Origin: Brevundimonas sp.
GTDB lineage: Bacteria > Pseudomonadota > Alphaproteobacteria > Caulobacterales > Caulobacteraceae
Direction of reading: 5' to 3'
NCBI RefSeq assembly: GCF_013912005.1
Contig: NZ_JACESB010000019.1
Location: 1 to 47,950, forward strand
DNA: 47,950 bases
Position numbers and translations under genes: made by a program. Positions 3,975 to 42,269 of this stretch are shown one piece after another; the stretch's first letter is position 1, and every line of letters begins with the position of its first letter. Below the pieces are notes generated by a model. The model was given only the letters and a program-made list of their open reading frames with translations. It was not told the DNA's origin and did no database searches.

Positions 3975-4976
3975 ATGACCCGTCCCGTCCCCGCCGAATG
4001 GGCGCCCCACCGCGCCATGTGGGTCGGCTGGCCGAGCCACGCCGAGCTGTGGGAGGACAATCTCGCCCCCGCCCGGGCCGAGGTGGAGGCCCTGGTCCGC
4101 GCCCTGGCCGGTCCCGGCCGCGAGCGCGTCCGGCTGCTGGTCGGCAAGGCCGAGGCCCTCGAGGACGCCCGCGCCCGCTTCGCCGGCGTGGCGGGCGTCG
4201 AGATCGTCGACGGCCGCTTCGGCGACATCTGGCTGCGCGACACCGGCCCGATCTTCGGGGCCGGCTCGGCGCGCGCGGCCGCCTTCCGCTTCAACGGCTG
4301 GGGCGGCAAGTACGAGCTGGAGCACGACGACACGGTGGCGGCGCAGATCGGCGCGGCCGCCGCGACGCCGCTGGACCGCCACGACTTCATCCTCGAGGGC
4401 GGCGCCCTGGATCACGACGGGGCGGGCACGATCCTGACCACCCGCCAGTGCCTGCTGAACCCCAACCGGAACGCCGGCTGGACCGAGGCCGCGGCCGAGG
4501 CGGCGCTGGCGGAGGCGCTGGGCGCCCGCAAGGTGCTGTGGCTCGGCGACGGCCTGCTGAACGACCACACCGACGGCCACGTCGACAACCTCGCCCGCTT
4601 CGTCGCCCCCGGCGTCGTCGCCTGTCCCGTCGCCTGGGGCCGCGGCGATCCGAACGACGACGTCTACGCCGAGGTCGCCCGCGCCCTCTCGGAGATGACC
4701 GACGCCGAAGGCCGGCCGATCCGCCGCCTGCCGCTTCCGTCGCCCGGCTTCGTCGGGGACGCGGACGAGCGGCCGATCCCGGCCAGCCACATGAACTTCC
4801 TGATCGCCAACGGCGCCGTCATCGTCCCCACCTACGGCGACGAAGCCGCCGCCCGCCTCGTTTGCGAAGGCCTCGCCACCGTCTTCCCCGACCGCGAGAT
4901 CATCCCCCTGCCGTCGCTCGCCATCCTCTCCGGCGGCGGCTCTTTCCACTGCATCTCCCAGCAGGAGCCGGAGTGA
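3975..4976 (+). CDS. aguA: Agmatine deiminase
   Basis: The product is a 333-residue member of the peptidyl-arginine-deiminase/agmatine-deiminase family, which hydrolyses agmatine to N-carbamoylputrescine and ammonia. Family landmarks are present: WLRDTGP (86-92), EGG (141-143), HTDGHVDN (198-205), and the catalytic cysteine C326 in GGGSFHC near the C-terminus. I chose ATG 3975, giving MTRPVPAEWAPH, because the family usually starts just before this conserved segment and GAGGA sits about 10 bases upstream. The in-frame TTG at 3912 would add 21 unsupported residues. aguB, the next enzyme, lies downstream on the same strand, but a four-helix-bundle cassette has been placed between the two. No recognisable agmatine-producing arginine decarboxylase lies in this window. 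Confidence 0.93.
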   Translation: MTRPVPAEWAPHRAMWVGWPSHAELWEDNLAPARAEVEALVRALAGPGRERVRLLVGKAEALEDARARFAGVAGVEIVDGRFGDIWLRDTGPIFGAGSARAAAFRFNGWGGKYELEHDDTVAAQIGAAAATPLDRHDFILEGGALDHDGAGTILTTRQCLLNPNRNAGWTEAAAEAALAEALGARKVLWLGDGLLNDHTDGHVDNLARFVAPGVVACPVAWGRGDPNDDVYAEVARALSEMTDAEGRPIRRLPLPSPGFVGDADERPIPASHMNFLIANGAVIVPTYGDEAAARLVCEGLATVFPDREIIPLPSLAILSGGGSFHCISQQEPE

Positions 4977-4984
4977 GCGGGGGA

Positions 4985-5015
4985 GTGAAAAGTGCTAGTG
5001 AGCAAGAGGTGAGCA
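4985..5015 (+). repeat. Left arm of 31-nt inverted repeat
   Basis: The arm begins GTGAAAAGTGCTAGTGAGC and starts 8 bases after the aguA stop. It pairs with 5384-5414 over 31 positions with one mismatch. Pairing stops cleanly at both ends of the arm. Confidence 0.9.
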
Positions 5016-5383
5016 CTGACGCGCCTCGGAGCCATCGCGATCTCAAGGTCTGGCAGATCTCCCTGGACCTGACGGAGACGCTGTACCGGGTCACGGCGGA
5101 TTGGCCGAAACACGAGCAGTTCGGCCTGATCAGCCAGGTTCGCCGCGCAGCAGTTTCGGTCCCGGCCAACATCGCAGAGGGCGCCGGCCGGCGAACGGCG
5201 GGCGAATTCATGCATTTTGTCGGCGTCGCGCGGGGTTCGCTTGCGGAGCTCGAAACCCTCCTCGCAGTGGCCCGCCGCCTCGACTACATCGAGGAGCCTG
5301 TCTTCCGGAGCCTCTCCGAGGATCTGTTCGAGCTTGGCCGCATGACCACTGGCCTGCTGCGAACACTTGAAGAACGTCGCTGA
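4985..5383 (+). CDS. Four-helix-bundle protein, 23S rRNA intervening-sequence (IVP/S23) family
   Basis: The product is about 132 residues if translation starts at GTG 4985, or 124 from GTG 5009. The core is typical of the S23/IVP family: DLKVWQISLDL, then FGLISQVRRAAVSVPANIAEG, then a GSLAELETLLAVARRLDY helix. The family forms pentameric alpha-helical bundles. It is found inside 23S rRNA intervening sequences and, as the relative Avd, with diversity-generating retroelements. Its molecular role when free-standing is not established. I see no reverse transcriptase or variable repeat nearby, so a retroelement is unlikely. The whole frame lies within a 31-nt inverted repeat, between two polyamine enzymes transcribed in the same direction. 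Confidence 0.85.
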   Translation: MKSASEQEVSTDAPRSHRDLKVWQISLDLTETLYRVTADWPKHEQFGLISQVRRAAVSVPANIAEGAGRRTAGEFMHFVGVARGSLAELETLLAVARRLDYIEEPVFRSLSEDLFELGRMTTGLLRTLEERR

Positions 5384-5414
5384 TGCTCACCCCTTGCTCA
5401 CTAGCACTTTTCAC
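5384..5414 (+). repeat. Right arm of 31-nt inverted repeat
   Basis: This is the reverse complement of 4985-5015 except at one base (5392). It starts immediately after the TGA of the four-helix-bundle gene and ends 15 bases before the aguB ATG. Confidence 0.9.
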
Positions 5415-5429
5415 CCGGACCCAGTCGCG

Positions 5430-6299
<870 letters not shown>

Positions 6300-19149: not shown

Positions 19150-19959
19150 TCAGCTCCCCTGCAGGGAGTCCCAGGTGCGCGCGCTGGCCTGTTCCGCGCC
19201 GCCGATGCGCGCGCGCAGCCAGGCGAGGTTGGCGTCGGCCTGTTCCGGCGGCAGGGCCCGGCGCAGGATCTGCTCGGCCTCGGGGAGATTGCCGTTCAGG
19301 CCGAGGGCCATGGCGAGATTCAGCCGCACCTTCAGCGAGGCGTCCGGCCGCGCGGCGGCGCGCCGCAGCAGCGGCTCCGCGGCCGCGTTGTCGCCGCGCA
19401 CCATGGCCGCGACCGCCATGTTGGCCAGCACGTCGGGATTCTCCGGCGACAGCTCCAGGGCGCGGCCCCAGGCGGCGCGGGCGTCGTCGGCGCGGCGCAC
19501 CTGCTCGTAGGCGGTTCCCAGCAGCGACCAGACGCGCCAGTCGTCGGGCCGGGCGTCCCGCGCCGTCTCGAGCGCCTGGATGCCGTAGAAGGCCTGTCCG
19601 CGGGCGATGTGGCCGCGGCCCGCCTCCAGCATGGCCTCGACGTTGCCCGGCTGCACCAGCAGCACCCGCTGCGCCATCTCGGCGGCCTGGTCGTAGCGGC
19701 CGAGCTCGCGCAGCGCCTGCGCCGCCTTGACCCCGGCGACCGGATCGCGCGGGTCGATGTCCGCCTGCTCGGTCCAGAACACCGAGCGGCTCAGGGCGTC
19801 GGCGCGGTCGTAGGCGGCGCGGGTCTCGGCGTTGGCGGGCGCACGCGTCCGGGCCGGAGCGGCGGCCGGATCCGCGGCGGGCGCCTGCTGCGCCAGCGCC
19901 GGGGAGGCGAGGGCGGCGAGAACGGCGATGGTTGCGATGCGGGCGGTCGTGCGCGACAT
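19150..19959 (-). CDS. Secreted tetratricopeptide-repeat protein (TadD-like)
   Basis: The product is 269 residues with a signal peptide (MSRTTARIATIAVLAALASPALAQ). It then contains about five TPR units, for example LRELGRYDQAAEMAQRVLL, WSLLGTAYEQVRRADDARAAW and LNLAMALGLNGNLPEAEQIL. The length and secreted TPR layout resemble TadD of Flp pilus systems, but no tad genes are in the window. A periplasmic protein-interaction role is inferred. Confidence 0.8.
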   Translation of the reverse strand: MSRTTARIATIAVLAALASPALAQQAPAADPAAAPARTRAPANAETRAAYDRADALSRSVFWTEQADIDPRDPVAGVKAAQALRELGRYDQAAEMAQRVLLVQPGNVEAMLEAGRGHIARGQAFYGIQALETARDARPDDWRVWSLLGTAYEQVRRADDARAAWGRALELSPENPDVLANMAVAAMVRGDNAAAEPLLRRAAARPDASLKVRLNLAMALGLNGNLPEAEQILRRALPPEQADANLAWLRARIGGAEQASARTWDSLQGS

Positions 19960-20053
19960 GGAAGGCGCTCCGGAAGGGTCGGCCCGCAGGGTCGCCGTTC
20001 CGCGTCAACTGCTGGTTAACGAAGCCCGCGCGCCGGGCCGGAAAGTCCGTCCC

Positions 20054-21432
<1,379 letters not shown>

Positions 21433-21439
<7 letters not shown>

Positions 21440-21528
21440 GGGATGAGGGATGAGGGAAGAGGGGACAGGGGACAGGGATGAGGGATCGCCGCGCATCCCT
21501 CATCCCTCATCCCTCATCCTTCTTCTCC
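21433..21528. repeat. Heptamer array in inverted arms: GGGATGA type
   Basis: From 21433 to 21488 there are eight consecutive 7-mers: GGGATGA three times, GGGAAGA, GGGGACA twice, GGGATGA and GGGATCG. After a core of about 6 bases, the complementary orientation runs from about 21494 to 21528, with CATCCCT three times and then decayed copies. The arms can fold into a long imperfect hairpin. The first heptamer contains the stop codon of the M17 peptidase. It lies between two genes on the same strand. Confidence 0.85.
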
Positions 21529-23355: not shown

Positions 23356-24096
23356 ATGAATCCCCTGATCCTCATCCCCGCCCGCATGGCCGCGACCCGC
23401 CTCCCGGGCAAGCCGCTGGCCGACATCGGCGGCCGTCCGATGATCGTCCGGGCGTACCAGCAGGCGGCCGCCTCGGGACTGCCCGTCGCCGTCGCCGCCG
23501 GGGATGCGGAGATCGTCGCGGCGGTCGAGGCGGCCGGCGGACGGGCCGTGCTCACCGATCCCGACCTGCCCTCCGGCTCCGATCGCATCCGCGCGGCGCT
23601 CGCGGCCATCGATCCGGACGGCCGCCACGACGCGGTGATCAACCTGCAGGGCGACATGCCGTTCGCCGACCCCGGCCTGGCGCAGGCCTGCGCCGGCCTG
23701 CTGGCGGCCGAGCCCGCCTGCGACATCGCGACCCTGGTTGCGCCCGAGGCGGACGCCTCCGACCGCGCCAACCCGGACGTGGTCAAGGCCGTGCTGGCCC
23801 TGCCCGAGGGCGCCCGCCACGGCCGCGCCCTCTACTTCACCCGCTCGACCCTCTACGGCGACGGCCCGGTCTGGCGCCACATCGGCCTCTACGGCTACCG
23901 CCGCGCCGCCCTCGAACGATTCTGCGCCGCTCCCCCGTCGCCGCTGGAGCGCCGCGAAAAGCTGGAGCAGCTGCGGGCGCTGGAGATGGGGCTCCAGATC
24001 TGGGCCGCCGTCATCGACGCGGCGCCGCTGTCCGTGGACAGTCCGGCGGATCTGGCTGAAGCGAGGCAGCAGGCGGCAGGCGGCAGGCAGCCCTAG
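23356..24096 (+). CDS. kdsB: 3-deoxy-manno-octulosonate (KDO) cytidylyltransferase
   Basis: The product is 246 residues. Nucleotidyltransferase motifs are clear: LIPARMAATRLPGKPL at the N-terminus, DPDLPSGSDRI, NLQGDMPF and HIGLYGYRR. It activates KDO with CTP for lipopolysaccharide core synthesis. Together with the arabinose-5-phosphate isomerase at 41.3 kb, it gives two KDO-pathway steps in the window. The conserved protein ends at DSPADLAEA. The last eight residues or so (RQQAAGGRQP) are encoded by the heptamer repeat array and are likely an added tail. Confidence 0.95.
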   Translation: MNPLILIPARMAATRLPGKPLADIGGRPMIVRAYQQAAASGLPVAVAAGDAEIVAAVEAAGGRAVLTDPDLPSGSDRIRAALAAIDPDGRHDAVINLQGDMPFADPGLAQACAGLLAAEPACDIATLVAPEADASDRANPDVVKAVLALPEGARHGRALYFTRSTLYGDGPVWRHIGLYGYRRAALERFCAAPPSPLERREKLEQLRALEMGLQIWAAVIDAAPLSVDSPADLAEARQQAAGGRQP

Positions 24097-24158
24097 GTCC
24101 GGGCCCGGGGCGGCGCCGCACGGGCTCCATGCTGCCTGCTGCCTGCTGCCTGCTGCCT
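24064..24158. repeat. Heptamer array in inverted arms: AGGCAGC type
   Basis: Left arm: AGGCAGC, AGGCGGC, AGGCGGC, AGGCAGC (24064-24091), inside the kdsB reading frame. Right arm: GCTGCCT four times (24131-24158), the exact reverse complement of AGGCAGC. The core between the arms is 39 bases and very GC-rich. The nudC stop codon (24157-24159 on the minus strand) uses the last bases of the right arm. It sits between convergent genes. Confidence 0.85.
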
Positions 24159-25089
24159 AAAGCTCCCCCTCCTCCACCCACGCCTCCAGCAGCCGCCGCG
24201 CGATCGCGATCCGCGCCGGCGCCCTGATCTCCGGATGGGTCCCCGCCAGCACCGCCCGCGCCTCGTCCCGCGTCAGCCAGGCCACCGCCTCCAGCTCCGT
24301 CTGGTCCGGGGCGGCCTGGTCCGAATCGACCTCGCACAGCAGGCCGATCATCAGCTGCGACGGGAACGGCCACGGCTGGCTGGAATGGTAGCGCACCGCC
24401 GTCACCGTCAGTCCGGCCTCCTCCGCCACCTCCCGGGCGCAGGCCTCCTCGATCGTCTCGCCCGGCTCGAGGAAGCCGGCCAGGGCCGACATCCGCCCCG
24501 CCGGCCAGCTGGCCTGCCGCCCCAGCAGACAGACCGGCTCCGGCCCGCCGCGGTACACTGGCAGCATGATGGTCACCGGGTCGACGCGCGGAAAATGCTC
24601 GGTCCGGCAGGCCGGGCAGATCCGCTTCCAGCCCCCCGCCGCCGTCTCGCTCTCCACCCCGCAGGCGGCGCAGAAGCCGTGCCGCGCCCGCCAGTCGAAC
24701 AGGCTCTTGGCCGTCCCCGCCATGGCCGCGTCGGCCCCGGACAGCAGGGCGGCGGCCTCGCGCATCTCCATGAAGGCGCCCAGCCCGGCCAGCGGCCCGG
24801 CCGCCGGATCCAGCGAGCTCTCCACCTCGACGGCGAAGACCGGCGCTTCCTTCCAGAGCCCGAGGAACAGCTCGCGGTCGGGCACGACCGCCCGCGCATG
24901 CTCCAGCCCCAGCCACGCCAGCCGCGGTCCGTCGGCATGGTCCTCGACCAGCGGCCGGCCCTGCCAGAGCGCCATGGCCACGGCTTCGGGATTGGCCGCC
25001 TGTTCGGCCAGCCAGGCGGGATCGTTGCGCCGGTCGCCCGCCCGGTCGAGCGGATTGCCGGCGAAGGTGTTGAGGGCGGGAAGGGGCAT
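24157..25089 (-). CDS. nudC: NAD(+) diphosphatase (NADH pyrophosphatase), Nudix family
   Basis: The product is 310 residues. It has an N-terminal NudC domain, a four-cysteine zinc ribbon (FCAACG, then ICPACR), the Nudix box GFLEPGETIEEACAREVAEEAG, and the NudC-specific SQPWPFPSQLM just downstream. It hydrolyses NADH/NAD+ to NMN(H) and AMP and can remove NAD caps from RNA. The catalytic Glu residues of the Nudix box are intact. It converges on kdsB across the AGGCAGC heptamer array. Confidence 0.93.
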   Translation of the reverse strand: MPLPALNTFAGNPLDRAGDRRNDPAWLAEQAANPEAVAMALWQGRPLVEDHADGPRLAWLGLEHARAVVPDRELFLGLWKEAPVFAVEVESSLDPAAGPLAGLGAFMEMREAAALLSGADAAMAGTAKSLFDWRARHGFCAACGVESETAAGGWKRICPACRTEHFPRVDPVTIMLPVYRGGPEPVCLLGRQASWPAGRMSALAGFLEPGETIEEACAREVAEEAGLTVTAVRYHSSQPWPFPSQLMIGLLCEVDSDQAAPDQTELEAVAWLTRDEARAVLAGTHPEIRAPARIAIARRLLEAWVEEGEL

Positions 25090-40576: not shown

Positions 40577-41155
40577 ATGCGTCCCGCCCGCGCGGCGGCC
40601 GCTGCCCTGCTGCTCGGGGGCGCCGCCGCCTGCGCCGATCCCGGGCTGCTGGTGGTTCCGCCGCCGCAGCGGCCGCGGGTGGTGCAGCCGATCGCCCCGC
40701 CGCGCACGACCGCCCCGTCCAGCGAGGTCGAGCGTCGGCTGCTCGAGGCGCACAACGCCGAAAGGGCGCGGGTCGGCGTCCCGCCGCTGCGCTGGGCCGA
40801 CTCCCTTGAGGCGGAGGCCCGGGTGTGGGCGCGCGAGCTGATCGGCGGCGACACCTTCGCCCACGATCCGGCGCCGCACGGCCACGGCGAAAACCTGTGG
40901 ACCGGCTGGGGCGGCCGGGTCTGGACGCCCGAGGAGATGGTGGGGGAGTGGGCGGCCGAGCGCGCCGACTACCGGCACGGCCCGTTCCCGAACGTCAGCC
41001 GGACGGGAAACTGGGCCGAGGTGGCGCACTACACCCAGCTGGTTTGGCGCGACACCACCCACGTCGGCTGCGCCGTCGAGACCCGCGGCGACCGCTCGGT
41101 GCTGGCCTGCCGCTACGCGCCGCCGGGCAATATCGACGGGCGGACGGCGTACTGA
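40577..41155 (+). CDS. CAP-domain (SCP/PR1-like) secreted protein
   Basis: The product is 192 residues. A lipoprotein-like signal (ALLLGGAAAC, Cys near residue 19) precedes a CAP domain with LLEAHNAERARVGVPPLRW, GENLWTGWG, HYTQLVWRDTTHVGCAVE and a final VLACRYAPPGNI. CAP proteins are extracellular or periplasmic; their function in bacteria is largely unknown. It follows hemerythrin closely. After the stop a heptamer array begins. Confidence 0.9.
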   Translation: MRPARAAAAALLLGGAAACADPGLLVVPPPQRPRVVQPIAPPRTTAPSSEVERRLLEAHNAERARVGVPPLRWADSLEAEARVWARELIGGDTFAHDPAPHGHGENLWTGWGGRVWTPEEMVGEWAAERADYRHGPFPNVSRTGNWAEVAHYTQLVWRDTTHVGCAVETRGDRSVLACRYAPPGNIDGRTAY

Positions 41156-41160
41156 AGAGG

Positions 41161-41276
41161 GGGTGTCGGGCGTGGGGTGTGGGGTCTACGCGGGACGTGC
41201 CCGGCGCCCCTGGAGCTCTCCACACCCAAGACCCTAAACCCTAAACCCTAAACCCTACACCCTACGCCCCACCCCC
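41161..41276. repeat. Heptamer array in inverted arms: GGGTGTG / TAAACCC type
   Basis: Left arm: GGGTGTC, GGGCGTG, GGGTGTG, GGGTCTA (41161-41188). After a 32-base core, the right arm 41221-41276 is eight 7-mers all ending in CCC: CACACCC, AAGACCC, TAAACCC three times, TACACCC, TACGCCC and CACCCCC. The arms are imperfect complements built on GGGNNNN. The right arm ends exactly where the stop codon (41277-41279, minus strand) of the isomerase gene begins. It lies between convergent genes. Confidence 0.85.
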
Positions 41277-42269
41277 TCAGCTCACGTACCCCGCCTGCAT
41301 CAGCTCGGCGATGTGGATGATCGCGACCGGCCGCTCGTCCTCGAGGACCAGCAGGGTGGCGATCTTGTTCTGGGTCATCAGGTCGATGGCGTCGCTCATG
41401 CGGGCATCGGGGGCGACGACCTTGGGGCGCGGGCTCATGATGTCGGCGGCGGTCAGGCCGGCGGCGTTCTCGCGGCCGAAGGCGCGGCGCACGTCGCCGT
41501 CGGTGACGATGCCGGCCAGCCGGCCGTCCGGGCCGACCACGGCCGTGGCCCCCTTGCGGCCCTCGGTGATGGCGGACACGACCTCGGCGAAGGTCGCGGT
41601 GGTCGGCACGAGCGCCGGGGCCGGCGGCCGGTCGCCCATCCAGTCGCGCACGCTCTGCAGACTCATGCCCAGCTTGCCGCCGGGGTGATGCAGGCCGAAG
41701 TCCTCGGCGGTGAACCCGCGGCGGTCCATCAGCACCATGGCCAGGGCGTCGCCCATCGCCAGCGTCATCAGGGTCGAGGTGGTGGGGGCGAGGCCGTTGG
41801 GGCAGGCCTCCGCCACCTGCGGCAGGGTCAGGCAGACCGCGGACGAGCGTCCGAGGAAGCTGTTCGGCCGCTGGGTGATCCCGATCACCGGGATGCCCTC
41901 CCGCTGGCAGTAGATCAGCGGATCGCGCAGCTCGCGACTCTCGCCGGAGTTGGAGATCGCCAGCAGGGTCACGTCCTTGCGCAGCATGCCCAGGTCGCCG
42001 TGGCTCATCTCCGCCGGATGCACGAAGAAGGCGTTGGTGCCGGTGGAGGCGAGGGTGGCGGCGATCTTGCCGCCGATGTGGCCCGACTTGCCCATGCCCG
42101 TGACGACGACGTAGCCGGGCCGCGACAGAATGGTCTCGACGGCCCGCACCAGGTCGTCTCCGAGCCCCGCCTCGAGCGCCTGCAGGGCGGCGACGTTCAG
42201 GCGCACGACCTCGCGCGCGCGGTCGATCATGGCGGACGGTTCGGCGGGGAGGGGGCCAGCATCGGTCAT
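41277..42269 (-). CDS. kdsD: Arabinose-5-phosphate isomerase (KpsF/GutQ family)
   Basis: The product is 330 residues from ATG 42269 (MTDAGPLPAEPS). A SIS domain with GMGKSGHIGGKIAATLASTGT and ISNSGES is followed by two CBS domains (about 200-325). It converts ribulose-5-phosphate to arabinose-5-phosphate, the first step of KDO synthesis. The catalytic His of the family is in GLHHPGGKLG. kdsB lies 17 kb away. A longer start at TTG 42302 would add 11 residues. Confidence 0.93.
   Translation of the reverse strand: MTDAGPLPAEPSAMIDRAREVVRLNVAALQALEAGLGDDLVRAVETILSRPGYVVVTGMGKSGHIGGKIAATLASTGTNAFFVHPAEMSHGDLGMLRKDVTLLAISNSGESRELRDPLIYCQREGIPVIGITQRPNSFLGRSSAVCLTLPQVAEACPNGLAPTTSTLMTLAMGDALAMVLMDRRGFTAEDFGLHHPGGKLGMSLQSVRDWMGDRPPAPALVPTTATFAEVVSAITEGRKGATAVVGPDGRLAGIVTDGDVRRAFGRENAAGLTAADIMSPRPKVVAPDARMSDAIDLMTQNKIATLLVLEDERPVAIIHIAELMQAGYVS

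Follow-up and report, generated by a model that had tools for sequence, protein, structure and literature searches.

An IVP gene enclosed by inverted arms at an aguA-aguB junction of Brevundimonas points to a family of elements that are or once were mobile

The cassette between aguA and aguB

The window analyzed here is a 47,950-nt stretch of a Brevundimonas sp. contig (NZ_JACESB010000019.1, positions 1 to 47,950). On its plus strand an aguA-like agmatine deiminase gene (3975..4976; PF04371, E 1e-106) is followed by a gene for a four-helix-bundle protein of the PF05635/TIGR02436 family (4985..5383, plus strand, assigned by profile matches and translation; hereafter the IVP gene) and then by aguB, coding for N-carbamoylputrescine amidase (5430..6299, plus strand). 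A preliminary description of this DNA had named the neighbors aguA and aguB, and the profile searches agree: the AguB product scores 460.7 bits against TIGR03381, over the cut-off, and the aguA-like product matches PF04371 while scoring 236.9 against TIGR03380, under the equivalog cut-off of 381.8. The same description had an inverted repeat of 31 nt enclosing exactly one reading frame, with start codons in the left arm and the stop codon touching the right one. This layout was recovered in full by an inverted-repeat search, which places a left arm with a GTGAGCA-type, only roughly heptameric end at 4985..5015 (plus strand) and a right arm at 5384..5414 (minus strand) that pairs with the left one at 30 of 31 positions (97% complementary; spacing 368 nt). 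These arms are the sole inverted repeat reported across 4700-5700. Both candidate start codons, GTG 4985 and GTG 5009, are in frame and lie inside the left arm, and the stop codon (5381-5383) abuts the right arm at 5384. The predicted RNA fold of the cassette pairs both arms (z -4.14), and 0 of 100 shuffles were equally stable.

The IVP protein matches PF05635 with an E-value of 1.6e-36 (125.2 bits; curated cut-off 33.8) and TIGR02436 with an E-value of 1.1e-34 (118.9 bits; curated cut-off 24), which confirms its proposed membership in the family of proteins encoded by 23S rRNA intervening sequences (IVSs). As in those IVSs, a stem surrounds an IVP gene; the site lies between aguA and aguB instead of within an rRNA gene. 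The only gene enclosed by the cassette matched PF05635 and related four-helix models and no transposase model, Y1/HUH included, and to our knowledge no catalytic domain is known for PF05635. Solved relatives of the protein are XCC0516 (2gsc) and 2rld. Some polar residues, R45, S49 and E79 among them, are invariant in 65 IVP sequences, an invariance that stems partly from the NIAEG pattern by which loci were found.

Gene-less copies of the arms

Further copies of the arm, for which the preliminary description proposed a search, are indeed present: its first 21 nt match the 2.89-Mb genome 18 times at up to three mismatches, with two of the matches being the cassette itself, and the reversed pattern gives 0. 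Twelve arm-bearing places besides the cassette have no gene between the arms, and eight of these span 86-88 nt (as cut by hand), with the arms alike and the loops unlike. The genome also codes for two more PF05635 proteins, the genes of which have ends of other types, AGGTTCT and GTAGGAA. Arrays of the AGGTTCT type occur dispersed over the genome, at seven places including the gene (33 overlapping matches; control 0), whereas GTAGGAA yields 2 matches, each at the gene itself, and no gene-less copy (reversed control 10). In REPIN/RAYT systems a short palindromic repeat, inverted on the two sides of a single gene, is also dispersed gene-less in the genome. Comparable gene-less hairpins with matching ends are found for two of the three IVP genes of this genome, those of the GTGAGCA and AGGTTCT types, and not for the GTAGGAA type.

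The window contains three further gene-less heptamer hairpins, none assigned to a strand: a GATGAGG type at 21426..21527 (fold -65.0 kcal/mol), a GGCRGCA type at 24061..24164 (fold -85.3 kcal/mol) and a GGGTGTA/GGGTTTA type at 41157..41276. Each of the three borders on one or two stop codons of genes with Pfam matches. The TGA stop of a peptidase M17 gene (19832..21439) falls in the first heptamer of the first hairpin; the second lies where a cytidylyltransferase gene (plus strand, ending at 24096) and a NUDIX gene (minus strand, ending at 24157) converge; and the third separates the stop codon of a CAP-domain gene (plus strand, ending at 41155) from that of a SIS-CBS gene (minus strand, ending at 41277). 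The heptamers of the third resemble those at the site S2 IVP genes of relatives. The first two hairpins differ in type from the ends of all three IVP genes found in the genome. The right arm of the third (41231-41276) reads (CCCTAAA)n, which is also the plant telomere heptamer; this likeness is probably a matter of chance within the heptamer family.

Occupied and empty junctions in relatives

In a survey of 61 Brevundimonas genomes, PF05635 matches were detected in 32, with 0-7 per genome; 54 matches were listed and 49 analyzed, with five fragments or contig-edge matches left out. The preliminary description had also suggested a search for aguA-aguB loci lacking the cassette, and these prove to be common: of the 58 genomes in which the junction was assessed, 41 have it empty, 16 have an IVP cassette and one (G029) has another insert. 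Empty junctions leave 2-11 nt between the last aligned aguA residue and the aguB start, counting the stop codon. Orthologous sites are therefore both occupied and empty at aguA-aguB, as in transposable elements. The G029 insert contains an open frame of 124 aa, in a genome with no PF05635 match. The 16 occupied junctions are of three heptamer types, namely GTGAGYA (5), GTGATTA (4) and GTGGCGA (7). The site label changes three times on the tree, with at least two changes forced by well-supported branches, and a single clade for the 16 agu-site cassettes is rejected by a modest margin (p-AU 0.027).

Other sites are likewise shared: nine shared sites hold 41 of the 49 Brevundimonas loci (32 genomes), so that 41 of 49 gene copies lie at a site common to another species, and eight sites are single. 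No recent within-genome jump was found among 19 loci compared, of which the sole identical pair (L319 and L320) shows no difference along its entire 1924 nt. Movement of the IVP gene thus looks rare. No target-site duplication could be defined in the junctions and loci compared. The idea in the preliminary description that the cassette may be a mobile unit is supported by the dispersed arms, the occupied and empty junctions and the several heptamer types at the one site, as well as by the 23S rRNA insert of like build described below.

IVP genes also recur at what seems to be one junction in four xanthomonad-type genomes (L167, L169, L192, L221), with differing heptamers, which gives a second recurrent site. 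In Xanthomonas vasicola (L169) the gene lies between AccB-like and AccC genes (Pfam), neighbors that we presume to be present also at the Luteimonas and two Rhodanobacter loci. Several alphaproteobacterial loci (L058, L061, L062, L069, L074) have IVP genes at an apparent nuoC-nuoD junction, Pfam-checked in L062 only.

The sites of gene-less hairpins vary in a similar manner. The source genome has a hairpin at a MurG-like/FtsW junction, which among nine relatives is without it in six (G010, G032, G044, G021, G003, G017) and holds other sequence in three (G006, G012, G014). At a FabG-like/FabD-like junction the source genome has a GTGAGCA-type hairpin and G012 one of another heptamer type; among eight relatives the hairpin is absent in G010 and G003, and G017 and G044 have longer inserts. 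Other palindromic repeats (CCTTCTCCC, CGTCATCCTCGGGCTTGACC) occupy this junction in G021 (L271), G014 (L272) and G032 (L273). A third hairpin junction, beside the gene for ribosomal L15, holds other sequence in G010 and G006.

Together the gene-end positions and shared sites raise the possibility of a domesticated regulatory or nucleoid role, in which an IVP ring would bind gene-end hairpins as a mark for transcription ends or mRNA stability and movement would have occurred only long ago. The three further window hairpins adjoining stops of Pfam-matched genes, the retention of the same sites across species and the invariant polar residues R45, S49 and E79 (part of the invariance coming from locus finding) would fit such a role. 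However, the same junction may be occupied or not between close relatives and the IVP gene is present in only 32 of the 61 genus genomes; this patchy presence argues against a needed function, and we hold such a role to be very improbable.

Inverted ends of fixed period and free spelling

We next consider IVP loci from three sources, namely this genome, the genus and a phylum survey of 249 genomes, 44 of which had a PF05635 match (41 above the cut-off); the 28 new loci from the phylum are the best of a longer list. Tandem self-matches of at least 85% were detected in 22 of 60 left flanks and 32 of 60 right flanks, every one of them with a period of 7. Control windows from the same loci gave 1 of 60 (period 7) and 0 of 56, and shuffles 0 of 120. 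Furthermore, the inverted match between the two flanks exceeded the best of 56 controls in 48 of the 58 loci used (two with short flanks were omitted) and did not in the other 10. A locus matched its own right flank better than that of every other locus in only 16 of 58 cases, because heptamer types are shared between loci.

A wider set, made up of the best 80 of 588 loci from named genomes of many phyla, all obtained via one NIAEG-type pattern, behaves similarly: inverted flanks exceeded the best of 68 controls in 52 of the 79 analyzable loci (one with short flanks was omitted) and did not in 27. Combining both sets, inverted flanks stand above every control in 100 of 137 IVP loci, a count in which same-site loci and near-twins (e.g. 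L066 and L067) are not independent and the wider-set locus L166 is the same locus as L130. In the wider set the right-flank periods are 7 in 26 loci, 8 in seven, 9 in one and 13 in one, and the left-flank periods are 7 in 14, 8 in five, 4 in two, 9 in one and 10 in one; control windows gave a period of 7 in five and 12 in one. These data support the conclusion that IVP ends keep a period, not a sequence, in most of the examined loci though not in all. A period of 8 is seen at the IVP gene ends of L156, L161, L187, L193, L196 and L225, and one of 9 at L165. Two loci titled Methanophagales, i.e. archaea (L164, L201), hold IVP genes with no evident inverted arms (scores 9 and 10).

Of 88 unique heptamers, 51 contain a stop codon when read on the gene strand, compared to 38.0 in shuffles (0 of 1000 as high), with related heptamers not being independent. 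Given that seven is not a multiple of three, a few repeats give stops in all frames, and such stops may help an insert to close a host reading frame.

Heptamer spelling and protein lineage

Heptamers were called in 130 of 155 loci, two of them runs of N, leaving 128 for comparison with the proteins. Heptamer classes, binned after the protein tree had been seen, require 10 changes on it compared to 34.1 when shuffled (0 of 200 as low). In Mantel tests protein and heptamer distances correlate overall (r 0.34, 128 loci), inside the genus (r 0.63, 46 Brevundimonas loci) and outside it (r 0.20, 82 loci), with 0 of 2000 permutations reaching the observed value in each; in the wider set alone, i.e. 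the best 80 of 588 loci, the correlation is weak (r 0.10, 93 of 2000). For near proteins the heptamers differ on average by 1.07 mismatches at the same site and 1.48 at different sites, and for far proteins by 1.94 and 3.01 respectively, indicating that lineage weighs most and site has some effect. Thus, heptamer spelling largely tracks protein lineage and not the insertion site. This tie could come from joint inheritance without recognition.

The arrays also go with the gene at the level of genomes. Matches to the three heptamer types were found in 28 of 32 IVP-bearing Brevundimonas genomes versus 10 of 29 others (p 2e-5), in a test that ignores shared ancestry; these counts, like the per-type counts that follow, include the cassettes' own arms, the removal of which could, judging from the matches listed, change the status of G050 only. 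GTGGCGA gives 14-69 matches in the seven genomes bearing the corresponding gene, with 23 of 54 others non-zero (median 0; p 2e-4). GTGAGYA gives 21, 11, 10, 1 and 2 in its five gene-bearing genomes, with 12 of 56 others non-zero (p 3e-5); the counts of 1 and 2 (G004 and G016, two of the five) are the cassette's own arms alone. When the types were swapped, GTGGCGA arrays in GTGAGYA-gene genomes gave p 0.03 and GTGAGYA arrays in GTGGCGA-gene genomes p 0.15; since GTGGCGA arrays are raised with the GTGAGYA gene too, arrays and cognate genes are not strictly coupled. Across the 61 genomes the arm pattern has 83 matches versus 8 for the reversed pattern, a control that is uninformative for GTGATTA, the pattern of which is its own reverse. 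Strict period-7 arrays were found in unselected 20-kb stretches, 40 kb from each of 20 genomes, in 2 of 10 IVP genomes and 0 of 10 others, an underpowered comparison with a detector that would miss the GTGAGCA type; one further match is a run of N.

Could the hairpins simply be independent repeats, arising by slippage or template switching, with the IVP genes as host genes or passengers that neither recognize nor move them? The arrays in 10 of the 29 genomes that lack an IVP match and the absence of any recent jump of the gene in the 19 loci compared are compatible with such an origin, and G-rich heptamers are treated as simple repeats in the accessible text of PMC4692102. Against it stand the inverted flanks above every control in 100 of 137 IVP loci, the spelling that goes with protein lineage across sites, and the greater frequency of arrays in IVP-bearing genomes (28/32 versus 10/29). 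We therefore regard independent repeats as an unlikely account.

Relationship to rRNA intervening sequences and other known systems

In one genome (G277) the IVP gene lies in a stretch that matches the bacterial LSU rRNA model over all 1924 nt, with arms of AGGAATC-like heptamers (L319); this is a site within an rRNA gene, as in 23S rRNA IVSs. The identity of L319 and L320 over that whole length fits two rrn copies. A scan of 157 loci for 23S motifs gave two matches, both to one motif. This 23S insert is built like the agu cassette, which suggests that the rRNA IVSs are one of the places where a wider element lands. Such a build in a genuine 23S rRNA insert, along with the dispersed arm copies, also lends support to the original characterization of the agu cassette as IVS-like and outside rRNA.

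As far as the accessible text of PMC4990558 (Warrier et al.) goes, the Coxiella 23S IVS resembles the agu cassette in its IVP-family protein, its single gene in a stem and its heptamers, with GACAGAT tandem heptamers that lie upstream of the IVS gene start and are treated there as local to this position. The same text describes a Xanthomonas IVP-family protein as a homopentameric ring. Unlike an rRNA IVS, the agu cassette sits between protein genes and has gene-less copies dispersed. RNA excision, hypothetical for the agu cassette, is a known trait of the rRNA IVS.

A second connection is to the G-rich heptamer arrays, GGGAATC in Xanthomonas and GGGGA(T/C)T in Nostoc, described by Rehm et al. 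(PMC4692102). The accessible text counts 70 inverted pairs in one genome and 75 in another, gives their function as unknown, and ties them to G-quadruplexes and generally not to mobile elements. Like the IVP ends, they often form convergent inverted pairs by gene ends; they are linked there to no particular protein gene, whereas the IVP heptamers flank one. We found arms of GGGAATC, GTGATTC and GGGATTC types at the X. vasicola, Luteimonas and two Rhodanobacter IVP loci. The X. vasicola gene (L169) has GGGAATC-type arms, with 130+132 overlapping matches in its genome, and two more of these genomes have 78+75 and 20+20; the reversed control is 0 in each case. Among the open-licence papers listed by our searches, we found no prior link of IVP/S23p genes to heptamer ends outside rRNA beyond PMC4990558 and PMC4692102.

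The IVP family is related to the accessory protein Avd of diversity-generating retroelements (DGRs), according to the accessible text of PMC10053308. Avd models match our IVP protein below cut-off (NF033474, 5.3e-06; bAvd, 7.6e-05), and the score of 26.7 bits falls short of the 80 set for an Avd equivalog. Unlike a DGR, the IVP cassette contains no reverse transcriptase, template or variable repeat, the profile scan having covered the cassette and its two neighbors. The cassette shares with REPIN/RAYT systems a gene between inverted repeats that are also dispersed gene-less. RAYTs belong to the HUH/Y1-type transposases and recognize conserved REP tags as part of their systems; unlike them, the IVP protein is a four-helix bundle, and its ends are set by period instead of sequence.

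RNA excision or a DNA-level element

The preliminary description had offered as an alternative that the cassette is cut out of the agu transcript, separating aguA from aguB expression. Here the arms would pair in the transcript and RNase III would cut the stem, parting the aguA and aguB mRNAs as in 23S IVSs. The strong predicted stem around the IVP gene, the 23S rRNA insert of the same build in G277 and the RNase III excision of the Coxiella IVS, reported in the accessible text of PMC4990558, are all in keeping with this. However, stems kept for pairing of the gene-strand RNA should have mismatches that lean to G.U, and none of this is seen: in the 96 of 155 loci used, 86 arm mismatches are wobble-type versus 108 non-wobble transitions (p 0.13), and by locus the comparison is 26 versus 28 with 42 ties. 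In 7 of the 16 occupied loci, all seven of the GTGGCGA type, the stretch from the right arm to the conserved N-terminal part of AguB contains no ATG, GTG or TTG, and the nearest start is an ATG overlapping the IVP stop (ATGA), so that the right arm encodes an N-terminal extension of AguB. Cutting of the stem in these seven loci would sever aguB from its start. An ATG follows the right arm in eight other occupied loci, including that of the source genome, and L044 was assigned to neither group. The dispersal of gene-less hairpins also speaks against an RNA module, which we consider quite unlikely, and transcript excision at agu thus finds no support in these data. Given the absence of wobble bias, the dispersed hairpins and the position of the aguB start, a DNA-level element is favored over an mRNA-excision module, though not proven.

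A proposed two-part element

In light of the above observations, we propose, as an on-balance probable reading, that the cassette represents a two-part, REPIN/RAYT-like class of elements, in which the IVP protein would recognize its own heptamer ends; both this recognition and present mobility we infer. Such an element would consist of one IVP gene between two inverted arrays of short tandem repeats, usually heptamers. The IVP ring protein might bind the arms of its own lineage as DNA and, along with host replication or recombination, place gene-bearing and gene-less copies, with insertion presumably occurring at gene junctions, which tolerate it. This scheme would resemble a RAYT gene with its dispersed REPINs, only without a known transposase fold. 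The copy between aguA and aguB is probably tolerated as a part of the operon in the source strain. A more far-reaching version, which we put forward tentatively as a possibility, is that of a phylum-spanning class with ends defined by period (seven, sometimes eight or nine) and not by sequence, in which each subunit of an IVP ring would read one repeat of the heptamer "barcode" particular to its lineage, and the ring would mobilize both itself and gene-less hairpins; the rRNA IVSs and the xanthomonad G-rich heptamers would then be two faces of the same system.

The data support an inverted end of fixed period and free spelling as common to most of the examined IVP genes, in both mRNA and rRNA settings, and the agu cassette and its relatives point to a so far overlooked family of elements that either move or did so in the past. 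This joins three loose ends, namely the orphan genes annotated as "four helix bundle protein", the origin and movement of rRNA IVSs, and the G-rich heptamer repeats, into one prediction that can be tested: the heptamer bound by an IVP protein should be that of its lineage. If true, this would represent a mode of recognition in which the ends hold their period while their spelling drifts along with the protein.
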